Source: Caulobacter sp. SL161 (GTDB lineage: Bacteria; Pseudomonadota; Alphaproteobacteria; Caulobacterales; Caulobacteraceae). Taken from it: a stretch of DNA of 64,000 bases. The notes beneath the pieces were generated by a model. The model ran no database searches, was not told the DNA's origin, and saw nothing but the letters and a program-made list of their open reading frames with translations. The stretch is taken from assembly GCF_026672375.1 (NCBI RefSeq), contig NZ_JAPPRA010000001.1, positions 3,720,001 through 3,784,000 of the forward strand. The letters are read 5' to 3'. This document shows, in pieces, positions 2,588 through 10,321 of the stretch. Every line of letters begins with the position of its first letter. Position 1 is the stretch's first letter. A program made the position numbers and the translations under genes.

Positions 2588-2720
2588 CGCCCCTCCGTCT
2601 CGCTGCGTATCCGCAGCGATCCACCTCCCCCGCAAGCGGGGCAGGAGGGCTGAGCTTCCTCCTCACCCGCATCGCGGGGGAGGTGGCGCGGCGCGAAGCG
2701 CCGTGACGGAGGGGGCGTTT
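2588..2720. repeat. R1 intergenic hairpin repeat, copy 1
   Basis: This element begins with GCCCCTCCGTC and ends with GACGGAGGGGGCG. An inner CCACCTCCCCCG near the left end pairs with GGGGGAGGTGG near the right end, so the whole can fold into one long imperfect hairpin. Other copies are at 5279, 7381 and 17850, and a diverged one at 33318. Confidence 0.8.
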
Positions 2721-2731
2721 CAACGACACAA

Positions 2732-2751
2732 AATGAGACCGGTACCATTTC
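2732..2751 (+). promoter_or_regulatory. LacI-type operator upstream of GH3 gene
   Basis: A 20-base dyad has perfect outer arms AAATG and CATTT around a palindromic core ACCGGT. A CG-centred dyad is the usual form of LacI/GalR-family operators. It sits just upstream of a -35 element, so it could serve repression or activation of the GH3 gene. Which regulator binds is not shown; XylR at 18586 is one candidate. Confidence 0.55.
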
Positions 2752-2756
2752 TGGCT

Positions 2757-2785
2757 TGAGTGGTCTGACAAGTCCCCTCATAGTG
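2757..2785 (+). promoter_or_regulatory. Predicted promoter of GH3 gene
   Basis: A -35 element TTGAGT (2757-2762) is separated by 17 bases from CATAGT (2780-2785). This is a plausible housekeeping sigma promoter that would leave a leader of roughly 55 bases before the ATG at 2847. Confidence 0.45.
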
Positions 2786-2846
2786 CCTCACAACAGCGGC
2801 GATTGAGAGCCGCCTCAGTAAAGCGCAGCCTCGGGGAAACGACCGG

Positions 2847-5267
2847 ATGAACACCACCCTCACCCGCCGCCTGTTCGGCGCGAGCCTGGCGGCCCTGTCC
2901 GCCGCCGCCCTGCCCGGCCTGGCGCAAGCCGCCGGCCAAGCCTCCAAGACATCGGGCGGCAAGCCGCTCTACAAGGATCCGGCCCAGCCGGTCGACGCGC
3001 GCGTGCAGGATCTGCTGTCGCGCATGACCCTGGAAGAGAAGGCCGCCCAGCTGGTCGGCATCTGGCTGACCAAGAACAAGATCCAGACGCCGGAAGGCGA
3101 CTTCTCGGCCGAGCAGGCCAGCAAGAGCTTCCCGCACGGCCTGGGGCAGATCTCGCGTCCGTCCGACCGCAAGGGCGCCAAGCCCGCCACGGTGATCGAC
3201 GCGGCCGCCGGCGCCGACGACGGCGCGATCAACCGCAACGCCGTCGAGACCGCCCGCTACACCAACGCCGCCCAGAAATGGGCCGTGGAGAAGACCCGCC
3301 TGGGCATCCCGCTGCTGATGCACGACGAGGCCCTGCACGGCTATGTGGCGCGCGACGCGACCAGCTTCCCGCAGTCGATCGCCCTGGCCTCGACCTTCGA
3401 CACCGAACTGACCGAAAAGATCTTCGCCGTCGCCGCCCGCGAAATGCGCGCTCGTGGCTCGAACCTGGCCCTGGCCCCGGTGGTCGACGTGGCCCGCGAC
3501 CCGCGCTGGGGCCGCATCGAGGAGACCTACGGCGAAGACCCGCACCTGTGCGCCGAGATCGGCCTGGCCTCGATCCGCGGCTTCCAGGGAACGACCCTGC
3601 CGCTGGCCAAGGACAAGGTGTTCGTCACCCTCAAGCACATGACCGGCCACGGCCAGCCCGAGAACGGCACCAACGTCGGCCCGGCCCAGATCGCCGAGCG
3701 CACCCTGCGCGAGAACTTCTTCCCGCCGTTCGAGCGCGCGGTGACCGAGCTGCCCGTGCGGGCGGTCATGCCCAGCTATAACGAGATCGACGGCGTACCC
3801 TCGCACGCCAGCCGCTGGCTGCTGACCAAGATCCTGCGCGAGGAGTGGGGCTACAAGGGCTCGATCCAGAGCGACTACTTCGCCATCAAGGAGCTGATCA
3901 GCCGCCACAAGCTGACCAGCGACCTGGGCGAGACGGCCGTTATGGCCATGCGCGCCGGCGTCGATGTCGAGCTGCCCGACGGCGAGGCCTACGCCCTGCT
4001 GCCCGAGTTGGTGAAGGCCGGCCGCATCCCGCAGTTCGAGGTCGACGCCGCCGTCGCCCGGGTGCTGGAGATGAAGTTCCAGGCCGGCCTCTTCGAGAAC
4101 CCCTACTGCGACGAGAAGACCGCCGACGCCAAGACCGCCACGCCGGACGCCGTGGCCCTGGCCCGCGAAGCCGCCCGCAAGGCCGTGGTCCTCTTGAAGA
4201 ACGACAAGGGCCTGCTGCCCCTGGACGGCAAGAAGTTCAAGCGCATGGCCCTGTTGGGGACCCACGCCAAGGACACGCCGATCGGCGGCTACTCGGACAT
4301 TCCGCGTCACGTGGTCTCGATCCACGAGGGCCTGACCGCCGAGGCCAAGGCGCAAGGCTTCCAGCTCGACTACGCCGAGGCCGTGCGGATCACCGAGCAG
4401 CGCATCTGGGCCCAGGACGCGGTCAACTTCACCGACCCGGCCGTCAACGCCAAGCTGATCGCCGAAGCCGTTGAGGTCGCCAAGAAGGCCGACATCGTGG
4501 TCATGGTGCTGGGCGACAACGAGCAGACCAGCCGCGAGGCCTGGGCCGACCATCACCTGGGCGACCGTGACAGCCTGGACCTGATGGGCCAGCAGAACGA
4601 TCTGGCCAAGGCGATCTTCGATCTGGGCAAGCCGACCGTGGTGTTCCTGCTGAACGGCCGTCCGCTGTCGATCAACCTGCTCAAAGAGCGCGCCGACGCC
4701 ATCATCGAGGGCTGGTACCTGGGCCAGGAGACCGGCCACGCCGCCGCCGACGTGCTGTTTGGCCGGGCCAATCCGGGCGGCAAGCTGCCGGTCAGCATCG
4801 CCCGCGACGTCGGCCAGCTGCCGGTCTACTACAACCGCAAGCCCACGGCCCGCCGCGGCTATCTGGACGGCGAGACCACCCCGCTCTACCCGTTCGGTTT
4901 CGGCCTGTCGTACACCACCTTCGACATCTCGGCCCCGCGCCTGGCCAAGACCAGGATCGGCCAGGGCGAGCGCGTCAAGGTCGAGGTCGACGTCACCAAC
5001 ACCGGCAAGGTGGCCGGCGACGAGGTGGTCCAGCTCTATGTCCACGATGAGGCGGCCTCGGTCACCCGTCCGGTGCTGGAGCTGAAGCACTTCAAGCGCG
5101 TCACCCTGGCCCCCGGCGCCAAGACCACCGTCACCTTCGAGATCAAGCCCTCGGACCTGTGGATGTGGAACCTGGACATGAAGCGCGTCGTCGAGCCCGG
5201 CGACTTCTCGATCATGGTCGGCCCCAACTCCGTGGACCTGAAGAAGGCGACGCTGACGGTCGCTTAA
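2847..5267 (+). CDS. Glycoside hydrolase family 3 (beta-xylosidase/beta-glucosidase type)
   Basis: This 806-residue exported enzyme should remove terminal beta-linked sugars from oligosaccharides. The N-terminus carries a Tat signal (TRRLFG at residues 6-11, cleavage after LAQA near residue 28). The GH3 N-terminal barrel (about 60-390) has the substrate-binding KH at 263-264 and the motif QSDYFAI with the likely nucleophile Asp343. The GH3 C-terminal alpha/beta domain spans about 435-680, and a fibronectin III-like domain about 725-795. Length and domain order are those of BglX-type enzymes. Neighbouring acetylesterase and GH115 glucuronidase genes make a xylo-oligosaccharide substrate likely, but family GH3 alone does not fix specificity. 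A LacI-type operator and promoter lie upstream. Confidence 0.93.
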   Translation: MNTTLTRRLFGASLAALSAAALPGLAQAAGQASKTSGGKPLYKDPAQPVDARVQDLLSRMTLEEKAAQLVGIWLTKNKIQTPEGDFSAEQASKSFPHGLGQISRPSDRKGAKPATVIDAAAGADDGAINRNAVETARYTNAAQKWAVEKTRLGIPLLMHDEALHGYVARDATSFPQSIALASTFDTELTEKIFAVAAREMRARGSNLALAPVVDVARDPRWGRIEETYGEDPHLCAEIGLASIRGFQGTTLPLAKDKVFVTLKHMTGHGQPENGTNVGPAQIAERTLRENFFPPFERAVTELPVRAVMPSYNEIDGVPSHASRWLLTKILREEWGYKGSIQSDYFAIKELISRHKLTSDLGETAVMAMRAGVDVELPDGEAYALLPELVKAGRIPQFEVDAAVARVLEMKFQAGLFENPYCDEKTADAKTATPDAVALAREAARKAVVLLKNDKGLLPLDGKKFKRMALLGTHAKDTPIGGYSDIPRHVVSIHEGLTAEAKAQGFQLDYAEAVRITEQRIWAQDAVNFTDPAVNAKLIAEAVEVAKKADIVVMVLGDNEQTSREAWADHHLGDRDSLDLMGQQNDLAKAIFDLGKPTVVFLLNGRPLSINLLKERADAIIEGWYLGQETGHAAADVLFGRANPGGKLPVSIARDVGQLPVYYNRKPTARRGYLDGETTPLYPFGFGLSYTTFDISAPRLAKTRIGQGERVKVEVDVTNTGKVAGDEVVQLYVHDEAASVTRPVLELKHFKRVTLAPGAKTTVTFEIKPSDLWMWNLDMKRVVEPGDFSIMVGPNSVDLKKATLTVA

Positions 5268-5278
5268 GGCTCGGAAGA

Positions 5279-5423
5279 GCGCCCCCTCCGTCACGGCGTC
5301 TATCGACGCCGCGCCACCTCCCCCGCTCGCTTCGCTACGGGGCAGGAGGGAGCGCTCTTCTCCTGGCCGTGAAACGGGGGAGGTGGCGCGCTGCGGATAC
5401 GCAGCGCGACGGAGGGGGCGTTC
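5279..5423. repeat. R1 intergenic hairpin repeat, copy 2
   Basis: GCGCCCCCTCCGTC on the left pairs with GACGGAGGGGGCG on the right, with the inner CCACCTCCCCC/GGGGGAGGTGG arms also present. It fills most of the gap between the GH3 and acetylesterase genes and may stabilise or attenuate the transcript. Confidence 0.8.
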
Positions 5424-5462
5424 AGATTTCGCCGCAGGACACTTGCGGCACGGGAGTTCACC

Positions 5463-7373
5463 ATGCGCCGTCTCGCGCCGATCCTGCTGGCCGCCCTGGC
5501 CGTTTCGCCGGCTAGCGCCCAGTCTCTCCTCAACGGCCTGTTCGCCGACCACGCCGTGGTCCAGCGCGACCGCCCCCTGCCGGTGTTCGGGACCGCCAAG
5601 CCGGGCGAGACCGTCACCGCGTCCTTCGCCGGCCAGACCCTGACCGCCAAGGCCGGTCCCGACGGCGCCTGGCGCGTCAACTTCCCGGCCACGCCCGCCG
5701 GCGGCCCCTACGCCCTGACCGCCGCCACCGCCTCGGCCAAGGCCAGCGCGTCCGACGTGCTGGTCGGCGATGTCTGGCTGTGCTCGGGCCAGTCGAACAT
5801 GGATATGCAGGTCTCCGCCTCCGGCGACGCCTGGAACCAGATCAACAACGGCGCGCCCAACGACACGATCCGCATGGCGACCATCGAGAAGGCCGACGCC
5901 CGCTCGCCCGCCAAGGACTTCAAGAAGCCGCCCGTCTGGAAGCCGACCAGCAAGGACACGGTCGGCGCCTTCTCGGCCAGCTGCTTCTACTTCGCCCGCG
6001 AGCTGCAGAAGACGCGTCAGGTGCCGCTGGGCCTGATCCACGCCTCGTGGGGCGGCTCGGGCATCGAGGCCTGGATGACCCCGACGGCCCTGCGCAAGGT
6101 CGGCGGCTATGACGACGCCATCGAGGTCCTGAACCTGTCGATCACCGACCAGGCCGCCGCCAGCCGCCGCTGGGGCGAGGTGATCAAGGCCTGGTGGAGC
6201 GCCAAGACCCCCGGCCAGGCGGCGCTGGCGCCCTGGACCGGCGCCGGGACCTGGACGGCCGCGCCGCAAGGCCTCGGGATCTGGGAGCGCTGGGGCGTTC
6301 CGGCCCTGGCCGAGTTCAACGGCGTCGTCTGGTTCAAGACCGAGATCGAACTGACGGCCGCCCAGGCCGCGCAGGCCGCCACCTTGGGCCTCGCCCAGAT
6401 CGACGAGATGGACACCACCTATCTCAACGGCGTGGGCGTCGGCGCGACCTCGGGCTCCTGGCTGGAGCGCCGCTACGCCCTGCCCGCCGGCGCGCTGAGG
6501 GTCGGCAAGAACACCCTGGTGGTCTCGGCCTACGACACCTACGCCAACGGCGGGATGTATGGCGATCCGGCCAAGCGGGTCCTGACCCTGGCCGATGGAA
6601 CGTCGCTGCCGCTGACCGACTGGACATACCGGATCGAGCCTCGCGCCGGCGGCGATCCGCCCCGCGCGCCGTGGGACACCCTGTCGGGCGTCTCCACCCT
6701 CTATAACGGCATGATCGCCCCGATGGGTCCTTATGCCTATGCGGGCCTGGCCTGGTATCAGGGCGAGACCAATGTCGGCCGCGACAAGGCCTATGTCGGC
6801 CTGCTGGGCGCCTTCATGGCCGAGCGCCGTCTGGGCCAGTCGCCCGACATGCCGGCCCTGGTGGTGCAACTGGCCGACTATGGCGGCTTCGCCATCGCGC
6901 CGGGTCAGCCCGCGGCCACCGCCGCCCTGCGCGACGCCCAGCGCCGCGCGGTCGCCGCCGATCCCCGTGCGGGCCTCGTGGTCACCCACGACATCGGCGA
7001 CCCCTACGACATCCACCCCGCCAACAAGCAGGAGGTCGGCCGCCGCCTGGCCCTGGCCGCCCGCCGCCTCTACGGCGAGCCGGTGACCACCGGCCCCGAG
7101 GTCGTCTCCGCCAAGCGGACCGGCGAGACCGTGGTGGTCAGCTTCGCCCAGGTGGGTGGCGGACGGCTAGTGTCGCGCGGCTCTGACCGCGTGATCGGCT
7201 TTGAGCTGTGCGACACGACCTGCCGCTGGGTCGACGGCCGCATCGACGGGACCTCGGTGGTGCTGAACGGGTCCGGCTCCAAGGTCCGCTTCGCCTGGGC
7301 CGACAGCCCCACGTTCAATCTGTTCGACGCCGCCGATCTGCCGGCCGGACCGTTCGAGATCGAGGTTCAGTAG
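5463..7373 (+). CDS. Sialate O-acetylesterase family carbohydrate esterase (SASA domain)
   Basis: The product has 636 residues and a Sec signal peptide (about residues 1-20, ending PASAQ). It is an SGNH-fold esterase of the SASA family: the block GQSNM places the nucleophile at Ser111, WYQGETN forms the conserved middle block, and DIHP gives the likely catalytic pair Asp516 and His518. A jelly-roll sugar-binding-like insert lies at about residues 260-380. Family members remove O-acetyl groups from sugars. Between GH3 and GH115 genes the likely substrate is acetylated xylan fragments rather than sialic acid. Its stop codon overlaps the proposed GTG of the GH115 gene by one base. Confidence 0.88.
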   Translation: MRRLAPILLAALAVSPASAQSLLNGLFADHAVVQRDRPLPVFGTAKPGETVTASFAGQTLTAKAGPDGAWRVNFPATPAGGPYALTAATASAKASASDVLVGDVWLCSGQSNMDMQVSASGDAWNQINNGAPNDTIRMATIEKADARSPAKDFKKPPVWKPTSKDTVGAFSASCFYFARELQKTRQVPLGLIHASWGGSGIEAWMTPTALRKVGGYDDAIEVLNLSITDQAAASRRWGEVIKAWWSAKTPGQAALAPWTGAGTWTAAPQGLGIWERWGVPALAEFNGVVWFKTEIELTAAQAAQAATLGLAQIDEMDTTYLNGVGVGATSGSWLERRYALPAGALRVGKNTLVVSAYDTYANGGMYGDPAKRVLTLADGTSLPLTDWTYRIEPRAGGDPPRAPWDTLSGVSTLYNGMIAPMGPYAYAGLAWYQGETNVGRDKAYVGLLGAFMAERRLGQSPDMPALVVQLADYGGFAIAPGQPAATAALRDAQRRAVAADPRAGLVVTHDIGDPYDIHPANKQEVGRRLALAARRLYGEPVTTGPEVVSAKRTGETVVVSFAQVGGGRLVSRGSDRVIGFELCDTTCRWVDGRIDGTSVVLNGSGSKVRFAWADSPTFNLFDAADLPAGPFEIEVQ

Positions 7374-10321
7374 TGTCCGCAGCGCCCCCTCCGTCACGAG
7401 GCTTCGCCTCGCGCCACCTCCCCCGTTTTACGGGTGAGGAGGATGCGATCTCCCTCCTGCCCCGCTTGCGGGGGAGGTGGCGCGGCGCCGAGAGGCGACG
7501 CTACGGAGGGGGCGTCTGGGCCGCCGCGTCCGCCCTCGCCCTGGCCGCCGGTCTGTTGACGTCCGTCGCCCTCCCCACCCCGGCTGAGGCCGCCGAGCCC
7601 GCCGCGATCAGCCTGTCGCCCAGCGCCGAGGCCTTTCCGCTGATCGCCGGCGGCAAGCCCGCGCGGATCGCCTATGACACCACCGACTTCCCCGGCGCGA
7701 TCCGCGCGATCCACGGGCTGCGCAGCGACCTGACGGCCCTGTCCGGCGCCGGCGCCGGCGCCGACAAGGACGCGCCGCTGGTCATCATCGGCACGATCGG
7801 CAAGAGCGCGGCCATCGACGCCCTGATCGCCTCGGGCAAGCTGGACGTGTCCCAGGTGAAGGGACGCTGGGAGGCCTTCGTCCAGCAGGTCGTCGAGAAC
7901 CCGCGCCCGGGCGTCGCCCGCGCCCTGGTGATCGCCGGCTCCGACAAGCGCGGCACGATCTACGGGGCCTATGACCTGTCCGAGCGCGCGGGCGTCTCGC
8001 CCTGGACCTGGTGGGCCGACGTCCCCGTCCCCCGGCGCGCCAACGTCTATGTCGCCCCCGGCGCCAATGTTCAAAAGCCCGCCGTCAAGTATCGCGGCAT
8101 CTTCCTCAACGACGAGGAGCCCGCGCTCGGCTCGTGGGCGCGCGCCAAGTTCGGCGGGATCAACCACGCCTTCTACGAGCGGGTCTTCGAGCTGATCCTG
8201 CGGCTGAAGGGCGACTTCCTGTGGCCGGCCATGTGGGGCAAGGCGCTGTATGACGACGACCCGCTGACCGCCTCGCTGGCCGACGAGATGGGCGTGGTCC
8301 TGGGAACCTCGCACCACGAGCCGATGAGCCGCGCCCACGTCGAGTGGGATCGCCACGGCGCGGGCGCGTGGGACTACGCCAAGAACGCGGAGAACCTGCG
8401 CGCGTTCTGGCGCGACGGCGTCGAGCGCATGGGCGCCAACGAGAGCCTTGTCACCGTGGGCATGCGCGGCGACGGCGACGAGCCGATGACGCAGGGCACG
8501 GCGACCCGCCTGCTGGAGACCATCGTCGCCGACCAGCGCCAGATCATCGCCGAGGTCACCAAGAAGCCCGCCGCCGAGACGCCGCAGGTCTGGGCGCTCT
8601 ACAAGGAAGTCCAGGACTATTTCGACGCGGGGATGCGGGTTCCCGACGACGTGACCCTGCTGTTCGCCGACGACAACTGGGGCAACATCCGCCGCCTGCC
8701 CGAGCCGGGCAAGACGCGCCCGGGCGGCTACGGCGTCTACTACCACTTCGACTATGTGGGCGGCCCTCGGAACTACAAGTGGCTGAACACCAACCAGATC
8801 GAGCGCACCTGGGAGCAGATGAAGCTGGCCGCCGACCATGGGGCCGACCGCCTGTGGATCGTCAATGTCGGCGACCTCAAGCCCATGGAGCTGCCGACCG
8901 AGTTCTTCCTCGACTACGCTTGGAACCCGGCGGCCATGCCCGTCGAGACCTTGCCGCGCTACACGACCGCCTGGGCGGCCCAGCAGTTCGGCCCCGAGCG
9001 GGCGAGCCAGATCGCCGCCGTGCTGGACGGCTACACCATGCTGAACGCGCGCCGTAAGCCCGAGCTGATCGACGCGGCGACCTTCAGCCTCGTTCACTTC
9101 AACGAGGCCGAGCGGGTGGAGGGCGAGTGGGCGGCGCTGGAGGCGCGCGTCGACGCCCTGCGCGCGGCCATCCCCAAGGAACAGGACAGCGCCTTCGTCC
9201 AGCTGGCCTGGTTCCCGGTGAAGGCGGCGGCCAACTATAACCGGCTGCAGATCGCGACCGGCCGTAACCGCCTGTGGGCCGGCCAGGGGCGGATCGCCGC
9301 CAATGCGCAGGCCGACCTGGTCAAGACCCTGTTCGCGCGGGACGCCGAACTGACGCGCCTGCACGACGCCCTCAACGGCGGCAAGTGGCGTCACATGATG
9401 GACCAGACCCATATCGGCTACACCAGTTGGCAGCAGCCGGCGCAGAATATCATGCCGGCCACCCAGACCGTCGCGGCCGCCGCCGGCTGGGGCGTCGCGG
9501 TCGAGGGCGGCGGCGAGGCTCCGCCCGCGCTGGCGCGCTGGGGCGCGAACCGCCGGTGGATCGACGTGTTCAGCAAGGGCGCGCCGATCGCCGTCACGGC
9601 CGTCAGCGACGCCCCCTGGCTCAAGGTGACGACCGGCCCCGCCAACGCCTCGGGCGACGTGCGCCTGGAGGTCTCGGCCGATTGGAGCCAGGCCCCCAAG
9701 GGCCAGACCTCCGGCCTGGTGAAGATCATCGTCGGCGGCGAGACCCGCACCGTCTCGATCACCGCCTCGAACCCTGCCCGCGCGCCGGCTCGAGGAGCCT
9801 TCGTCGAGGCCGGAGGCGTCACGGCGATCGAGGCTGAACACCACGCCGCCGCGAAGGGCGGACAGGGCGTCGCCTGGGCCACCATCCCCAACCTTGGGCG
9901 CACGCTGTCGGGCGTGACCAGCTATCCGTCCACCGCGCCCAGCTCCAAGCCGGGCGGCGCGTCGCCGGCGCTCGAGTATCTGGTCGACTTCGAGGCGGCG
10001 GGACCGGTGGACCTGACCGTGCTCGTCTCCCCGACCCTGGACTTCCGAGGCGGCAAGGGCCTGGCCTATGCGGTCTCGATCGGCGACGGCGCGCCGGTGA
10101 TCGTCAACAGCCAGCCCGACGCCTCGGAGGCCGCCTGGAACAAGGCGGTCGCCGACAATGTCCGCGCGCAGACGACACGGCTGGAGGTCCCCTCGGCCGG
10201 ACCGCACCGGGTGCGGCTGTGGCGGGTGGATCCCGGCGTCGTGTTCCAGCGGCTGGTGCTGTCGCGCGGCCCGCTGCCCGCCAGCTATCTGGGTCCGCCC
10301 GAGAGCGTCCGGGCCCCTTAA
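7373..10321 (+). CDS. Glycoside hydrolase family 115 (xylan alpha-1,2-glucuronidase type)
   Basis: GH115 enzymes remove (4-O-methyl)glucuronic acid side groups from xylan. The block YRGIFLNDEEPALGSW (near residue 239) and the surrounding large domain identify the family, and a GH115 C-terminal beta domain covers roughly the last 170 residues. The only sensible start is GTG at 7373, which overlaps the upstream TAG by one base and has GAGG seven bases before it. With this start the protein has 982 residues. The hydrophobic signal segment begins near residue 49 and is cleaved near residue 73 (TPAEAA). Residues 3-48 are Arg- and Pro-rich and are encoded by an R1 intergenic repeat, which is very odd. 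No ATG exists between the repeat and the signal segment. Confidence 0.88.
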   Translation: MSAAPPPSRGFASRHLPRFTGEEDAISLLPRLRGRWRGAERRRYGGGVWAAASALALAAGLLTSVALPTPAEAAEPAAISLSPSAEAFPLIAGGKPARIAYDTTDFPGAIRAIHGLRSDLTALSGAGAGADKDAPLVIIGTIGKSAAIDALIASGKLDVSQVKGRWEAFVQQVVENPRPGVARALVIAGSDKRGTIYGAYDLSERAGVSPWTWWADVPVPRRANVYVAPGANVQKPAVKYRGIFLNDEEPALGSWARAKFGGINHAFYERVFELILRLKGDFLWPAMWGKALYDDDPLTASLADEMGVVLGTSHHEPMSRAHVEWDRHGAGAWDYAKNAENLRAFWRDGVERMGANESLVTVGMRGDGDEPMTQGTATRLLETIVADQRQIIAEVTKKPAAETPQVWALYKEVQDYFDAGMRVPDDVTLLFADDNWGNIRRLPEPGKTRPGGYGVYYHFDYVGGPRNYKWLNTNQIERTWEQMKLAADHGADRLWIVNVGDLKPMELPTEFFLDYAWNPAAMPVETLPRYTTAWAAQQFGPERASQIAAVLDGYTMLNARRKPELIDAATFSLVHFNEAERVEGEWAALEARVDALRAAIPKEQDSAFVQLAWFPVKAAANYNRLQIATGRNRLWAGQGRIAANAQADLVKTLFARDAELTRLHDALNGGKWRHMMDQTHIGYTSWQQPAQNIMPATQTVAAAAGWGVAVEGGGEAPPALARWGANRRWIDVFSKGAPIAVTAVSDAPWLKVTTGPANASGDVRLEVSADWSQAPKGQTSGLVKIIVGGETRTVSITASNPARAPARGAFVEAGGVTAIEAEHHAAAKGGQGVAWATIPNLGRTLSGVTSYPSTAPSSKPGGASPALEYLVDFEAAGPVDLTVLVSPTLDFRGGKGLAYAVSIGDGAPVIVNSQPDASEAAWNKAVADNVRAQTTRLEVPSAGPHRVRLWRVDPGVVFQRLVLSRGPLPASYLGPPESVRAP
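7381..7516. repeat. R1 repeat copy 3, lying inside the GH115 reading frame
   Basis: It has the same outer arms (GCGCCCCCTCCGTC and CGGAGGGGGCG) and inner arms (CCACCTCCCCC and GGGGGAGGTGG) as the intergenic copies. Here the element is open in the frame of GH115 and lies between its likely GTG start and its signal sequence. Confidence 0.8.

Follow-up and report, generated by a model that had tools for sequence, protein, structure and literature searches.

The analysed window, a stretch of 64,000 nucleotides from Caulobacter sp. SL161 (genome G000 in our set), carries a GH3-esterase-GH115 operon in which a SASA-type carbohydrate esterase gene (5463..7373, + strand; PF03629, E=2.5e-16) is followed by a GH115 alpha-glucuronidase gene (7373..10321, + strand), whose 982 aa translation, N-terminal extension included, matches the Pfam domains PF15979 (E=6.7e-150) and PF17829 (E=4.1e-50). 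The GTG start of GH115 (7373..7375, + strand) overlaps the TAG stop of the esterase (7371-7373) by one base, and GAGG, a possible Shine-Dalgarno sequence, lies 7 nt 5' of it (7362..7365, + strand); this TAGTG arrangement had been described in the initial annotation and was borne out by the ORF coordinates. The core and cleavage region of the predicted signal sequence (WAAASALALAAGLLTSVALPTPAEA; 7517..7591, + strand) were placed by ortholog alignment, hydropathy and charge. Between start and core lies R1 (APPPSRGFASRHLPRFTGEEDAISLLPRLRGRWRGAERRRYGGG; 7381..7514, + strand), a palindromic repeat that we describe as a REP-like inverted dimer on the basis of its genome copies, fold and arm anatomy. 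The repeat had been reported as open in the GH115 frame and as adding about 46 Arg/Pro-rich residues, in agreement with the 48-residue extension found here, in which the frame is open and 44 codons come from R1 (HLPRFTGEEDAISLLPR is an example of the peptide predicted for the repeat part).

Besides GTG 7373, the only in-frame starts before the mature protein are TTG 7466, which lies within R1 and lacks a Shine-Dalgarno sequence, and TTG 7556, which falls within the hydrophobic core of the predicted signal sequence; the latter had been put forward as the possible true start and can be set aside, since initiation there would cut the core. No ATG, GTG or TTG located 3' of R1 in this gene yields an intact predicted signal peptide. 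The GAGG is not conserved before the GH115 start of relatives, which makes coupling to the esterase the likelier route of initiation. The RNA of R1 at GH115 forms a single long hairpin (-100.7 kcal/mol; z = -8.4 vs shuffles).

R1 in the genome and the class of the element

R1 is about 134 bp long, and a repeat search returned 76 overlapping matches, equivalent to about 40 places in the 4.0-Mb genome. Two further copies, both identified by repeat match on the - strand, lie 5' of the GH3 gene (2590..2717) and between the GH3 gene and the esterase (5280..5420), and the window thus holds three copies within 5 kb (2590-7514), one ahead of each gene of the operon, compared with about 40 in the 4 Mb of the genome. 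The earlier statement that R1 is elsewhere always intergenic stood for this genome and failed for its relatives (see below): of the 39 copies that reach 45 bp, the GH115 copy alone lies in frame in a coding-like ORF without a usable later start, as judged on the stretches around the copies by an ORF and GC3 test and not by curated annotation.

At the GH3/esterase intergenic junction (5268-5462; L171), R1 is present in G000 and an unrelated palindrome (TCATCCCGGACGG...GCCGGGATGACA) in G041, the nearest relative. As the relative has another palindrome there, no target-site duplication could be read for the R1 copy at 5280. To judge from the sequences, repeat families are swapped at junctions, the GH3/esterase intergenic DNA included. 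Several orthologous R1 copies of G000 and G041 are best aligned flipped (2590-2717/L144, L100/L170, L101/L164, L103/L153 and L105/L155), as if the element inverts in place, although its near-palindromy may blur this call.

R1 is best called REP-like. The CGTC-tagged REP dimers of alphaproteobacteria carry a CGTC (or TGTC/CCTC) tag and are mostly intergenic, with some intragenic or at the NH2 termini of ORFs (Di Nocera et al., 2013; PMC3733652). R1 resembles them in its inverted dimer, outside CGTC tags, short hairpin arms, CCA-like tails and mostly intergenic location, and the fit lies in tag, orientation, CCA tail and partly stem length. In the commonest R1 arms CGTC stands ahead of the palindrome, each of the commonest variants listed has CCA after its arm, and most copies have CGTC at both ends, inverted, around a complementary spacer, which gives a head-to-head dimer with the tags outside. 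The stem/loop sizes of the arms are 8/4 or 9/4 in 29, 6/3 in 30 and 5/5 in 29, the CGTC-tagged class being defined by an 8-9 bp stem and a 4-5 nt loop. Unlike the CGTC-tagged REPs, R1 has many shorter-stemmed arms and lacks the A-T pairs reported at stem positions 1 and 2, the commonest arms beginning TCG/ACG with C-G as second pair. It is also RPE-like in that the repeat lies within a CDS, the frame is intact and repeat-free orthologs exist. Caulobacter CIR repeats, as described by Chen and Shapiro (2003, via PMC2229807), are likewise intergenic and palindromic, about 110 bp long, contain GANTC and stops in all six frames, and are absent from genes; identity with CIR was rejected for the GH115 copy of R1, which has no GANTC and has open frames (about 55% of R1 frames are open). 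Rfam returned no family above threshold for R1, only chance miRNA-like matches, and our literature search found no paper naming R1.

Repeat-free and repeat-bearing GH115 orthologs

GH115 orthologs were drawn from 75 genomes of the genus with a query that excludes the repeat, so the upstream frame was not selected for. In nine repeat-free relatives a GTG or ATG start overlaps the esterase stop (GTGA/ATGA) and leads straight into the signal core (MSITGLR.., VSKGVTGLRTAVSALAL..); GTG 7373 is orthologous to these starts and to the ATG of G041. Since the repeat-free orthologs share the overlap start codon, the repeat was inserted within the coding sequence. Further relatives have another upstream gene and an ordinary start (MIRTA...).

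Seven orthologs with the esterase upstream have additional sequence at precisely this point, where the overlap start would otherwise run into the signal core, namely R1 in G000, G041 and G030, R2 (a palindrome unrelated to R1) in G032, G059 (Caulobacter sp. Root343) and G039, and an internally shortened R2-like remnant at the same site in G065. The reading frame is kept in all seven. G000, G041 and G059 are well assembled and G030, G032 and G039 are metagenome assemblies, with one genome per species. Whether relatives start at an ATG past the repeat was checked in each: as in G000, no ATG, GTG or TTG after the repeat would preserve the signal peptide in G041, G030, G032 and G039, that is, in five of the seven, and the ATG directly past R2 in G059 and that past the remnant in G065 are both possible starts. 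R2 of G032 and G059 (L012, L013) also contains, in the frame of GH115, GGAG-8nt-GTG, which could act as an internal start and shorten the extension. In G041 an ancestral MSK-GV can plausibly be recognised in the MSK on the left flank and the V of the GTC codon on the right.

In the GH115 tree, the sister of G030 (R1) is G032 (R2) (100/100); the clade of G000 and G041 comes next, G059 (R2) branches outside these, and G039 (R2), G065 (remnant) and G006 (repeat-free) make up a separate clade. This mixed placement indicates that one site gained or exchanged families on more than one occasion; the count of independent insertions is uncertain.

An open frame by itself was rejected as evidence, as any R1 frame is open 55% of the time (62 distinct full copies; 54% of 16 R2 copies). 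Combined with a 1/3 probability of the correct phase, the chance is about 0.18 per independent state and about 1e-3 for four states, if they are independent, which is an estimate from repeat copies and not a formal test. At 12 other orthologous R1 sites in G000 and G041, where no coding constraint acts, 13 of 39 open frames are still open and in phase, and the repeat alignment is gap-free at only one site. The GH115 copies of the same two genomes differ by five substitutions and no indel, with both open frames kept; with neutral frame survival at about one third, this pair alone is not significant. The five substitutions change amino acids, so it is the frame that is kept and not the peptide, and conservation of the amino acids of the extension was not found.

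A second junction with R1 in frame

An R1 scan of G041 revealed a metallo-beta-lactamase-like gene 3' of a metF-like gene (both names read from sequence and not from a family search) with R1 in frame (L152:722-1726, - strand). The lactamase ATG overlaps the upstream TGA (ATGA), and R1 lies between this start and the signal core, MTPL being followed by R1 and then by VAALAALFFALAPAAHA. The same arrangement with in-frame R1 is found in G031 and G003 (L196, L201), and there is no net length change among the three filled alleles. By comparison, 27 of the 30 lactamase orthologs examined begin with MKRLILA.. or a similar short n-region, and the empty MKRLILA allele is present in G000, the genome of the window, as well as in G001 and G046. 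The filled alleles are scattered over the gene tree, a pattern suggesting that recombination transferred the 5' end or that insertion occurred repeatedly. G041 has a GTG past R1 with a good Shine-Dalgarno sequence that could serve as an alternative start; no ATG, GTG or TTG past R1 keeps the signal peptide in G031 and G003.

A scan of G032 and G059 for R1 and R2 gave no clear case besides the GH115 gene of each. At L263:1210-1340, a deacetylase-like signal sequence directly follows R2; the repeat has no start ahead of it and a GTG just after it as the only likely start, and this case is ambiguous.

Probable translation of the repeat as a signal peptide n-region

R1 is very probably read as protein and forms a long new front end to the export signal of GH115, a presumably secreted enzyme that breaks down plant fibre. 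We give the whole of the following account, from insertion to tolerance, a probability of about 0.8. R1 entered the GH115 coding sequence about three codons past the start, translation would still begin at GTG 7373, probably via termination-reinitiation coupling with the esterase, and the element would be translated as about 44 Arg/Pro/Gly-rich residues. The repeat would take over the short original n-region and give Arg-rich positive charge ahead of the hydrophobic core, and the extension would leave with the signal peptide on cleavage. As the GH115 start overlaps the esterase stop, the junction has no spacer, and a repeat arriving there would be forced into the tolerant n-region of the signal peptide. 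At such a site repeats of different families could come and go with only the frame under selection. The strongest evidence is comparative, and the comparison of genes shows insertion inside the coding sequence, a conserved start, a frame kept in seven orthologs and recurrence of the pattern at a second operon junction; coupling, export, removal of the extension by cleavage and an unaltered mature enzyme are what we infer.

The n-region of a signal peptide can accommodate 44 additional residues, its chief requirement being a net positive charge. This charge would come from the right ends of the two repeats, which in translation read RRRYGGG, RRDGGG, GFRRG, GVRRGGRG and HRVGGGA, and every repeat-bearing protein has a net charge of +2 to +6 across the 15 residues ahead of the core. 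The hairpin of -100 kcal/mol begins about 10 nt past the start codon and would be expected to impede initiation in the absence of coupling. Because a ribosome that ends translation at the overlapping stop is already covering and opening this region, coupling is again the likely route.

The initial annotation had offered a repeat that inserted near the 5' end and was domesticated. The insertion is retained, the start being conserved in repeat-free orthologs, but domestication as a selected function is not needed, as tolerance suffices. It is nevertheless conceivable, if rather improbable, that the extension or the mRNA hairpin has a selected function, lowering GH115 output relative to the esterase, protecting the upstream mRNA or altering the export route, and such a function can be combined with the translated n-region that we favour. 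The hairpin at the operon junction is very stable (z = -8.4), repeats return to the same GH115 junction in several lineages, and intergenic REPs have often been proposed to tune the expression of their neighbours (PMC3733652), whereas many orthologs have no repeat at this junction and neither its sequence nor its family is conserved there. As a tentative and less likely extension, REP-family dimers may be recurrent, exchangeable n-region modules at coupled Caulobacter operon starts, each supplying a charged leader and a ratio-setting hairpin.

We consider it unlikely that a weak or non-standard start codon past or within the repeat is used and that the repeat serves as a 5' regulatory element, as Di Nocera et al. 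(PMC3733652) argue for the majority of N-terminal REPs. They warn that in three species such REPs may mostly go untranslated; in R1 itself, GGAGGGGG at the right end is a good Shine-Dalgarno sequence, and an ATG or GTG follows the repeat in G059 and in the G041 lactamase. However, a start that saves the signal peptide is absent after the repeat from the five GH115 genes and two lactamase genes named above, the frame is kept everywhere, and the repeat-free relatives use the overlap start. Least probable is that GH115 is decaying into a pseudogene after the insertion abolished effective initiation or export, and a lost start, as had been suggested, is also unlikely, for although the native n-region is replaced and a strong hairpin sits at the start, the ORF is intact with a GC3 of 0.95, the gene is 93% identical to that of G041 with the same insertion, and repeat-bearing orthologs occur in several species.

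Palindromic repeats that are translated have precedents in Rickettsia and enterobacteria (PMC3733652; PMC2759123). Rickettsia RPE-1, RPE-4 and RPE-6, compared here by published description only, are like R1 palindromic repeats translated in frame inside protein genes, and N-terminal RPE-1 proteins are described in PMC3733652 as expressed in vivo. The RPEs occur at differing positions in genes that are unrelated and for the most part metabolic and housekeeping, whereas R1 lies in the n-region at an overlapping operon start, a site taken by different families. In Yersinia, part of the signal of YPO1552, a small putative exported protein, is made up of RU-2 (Delihas, 2007; PMC2759123), whereas R1 and R2 take the place of the n-region only, in a conserved enzyme that also has orthologs without a repeat. 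N-termini decorated by REPs or RPEs are therefore already known, and what is new is the recurrent replacement of an n-region and the swap of families at one coupled start.

Translation of N-terminal REPs has been doubtful, and the comparative data argue for it in GH115. The question can be tested directly here, since alleles with and without the repeat occur naturally, one site hosts two unrelated families and a second gene shows the pattern. Should the account hold, non-autonomous repeats may enter coding sequences harmlessly at coupled junctions as signal peptide n-regions, which would provide a route from selfish DNA to protein and bears on the annotation of the start sites of secreted enzymes in GC-rich genomes.
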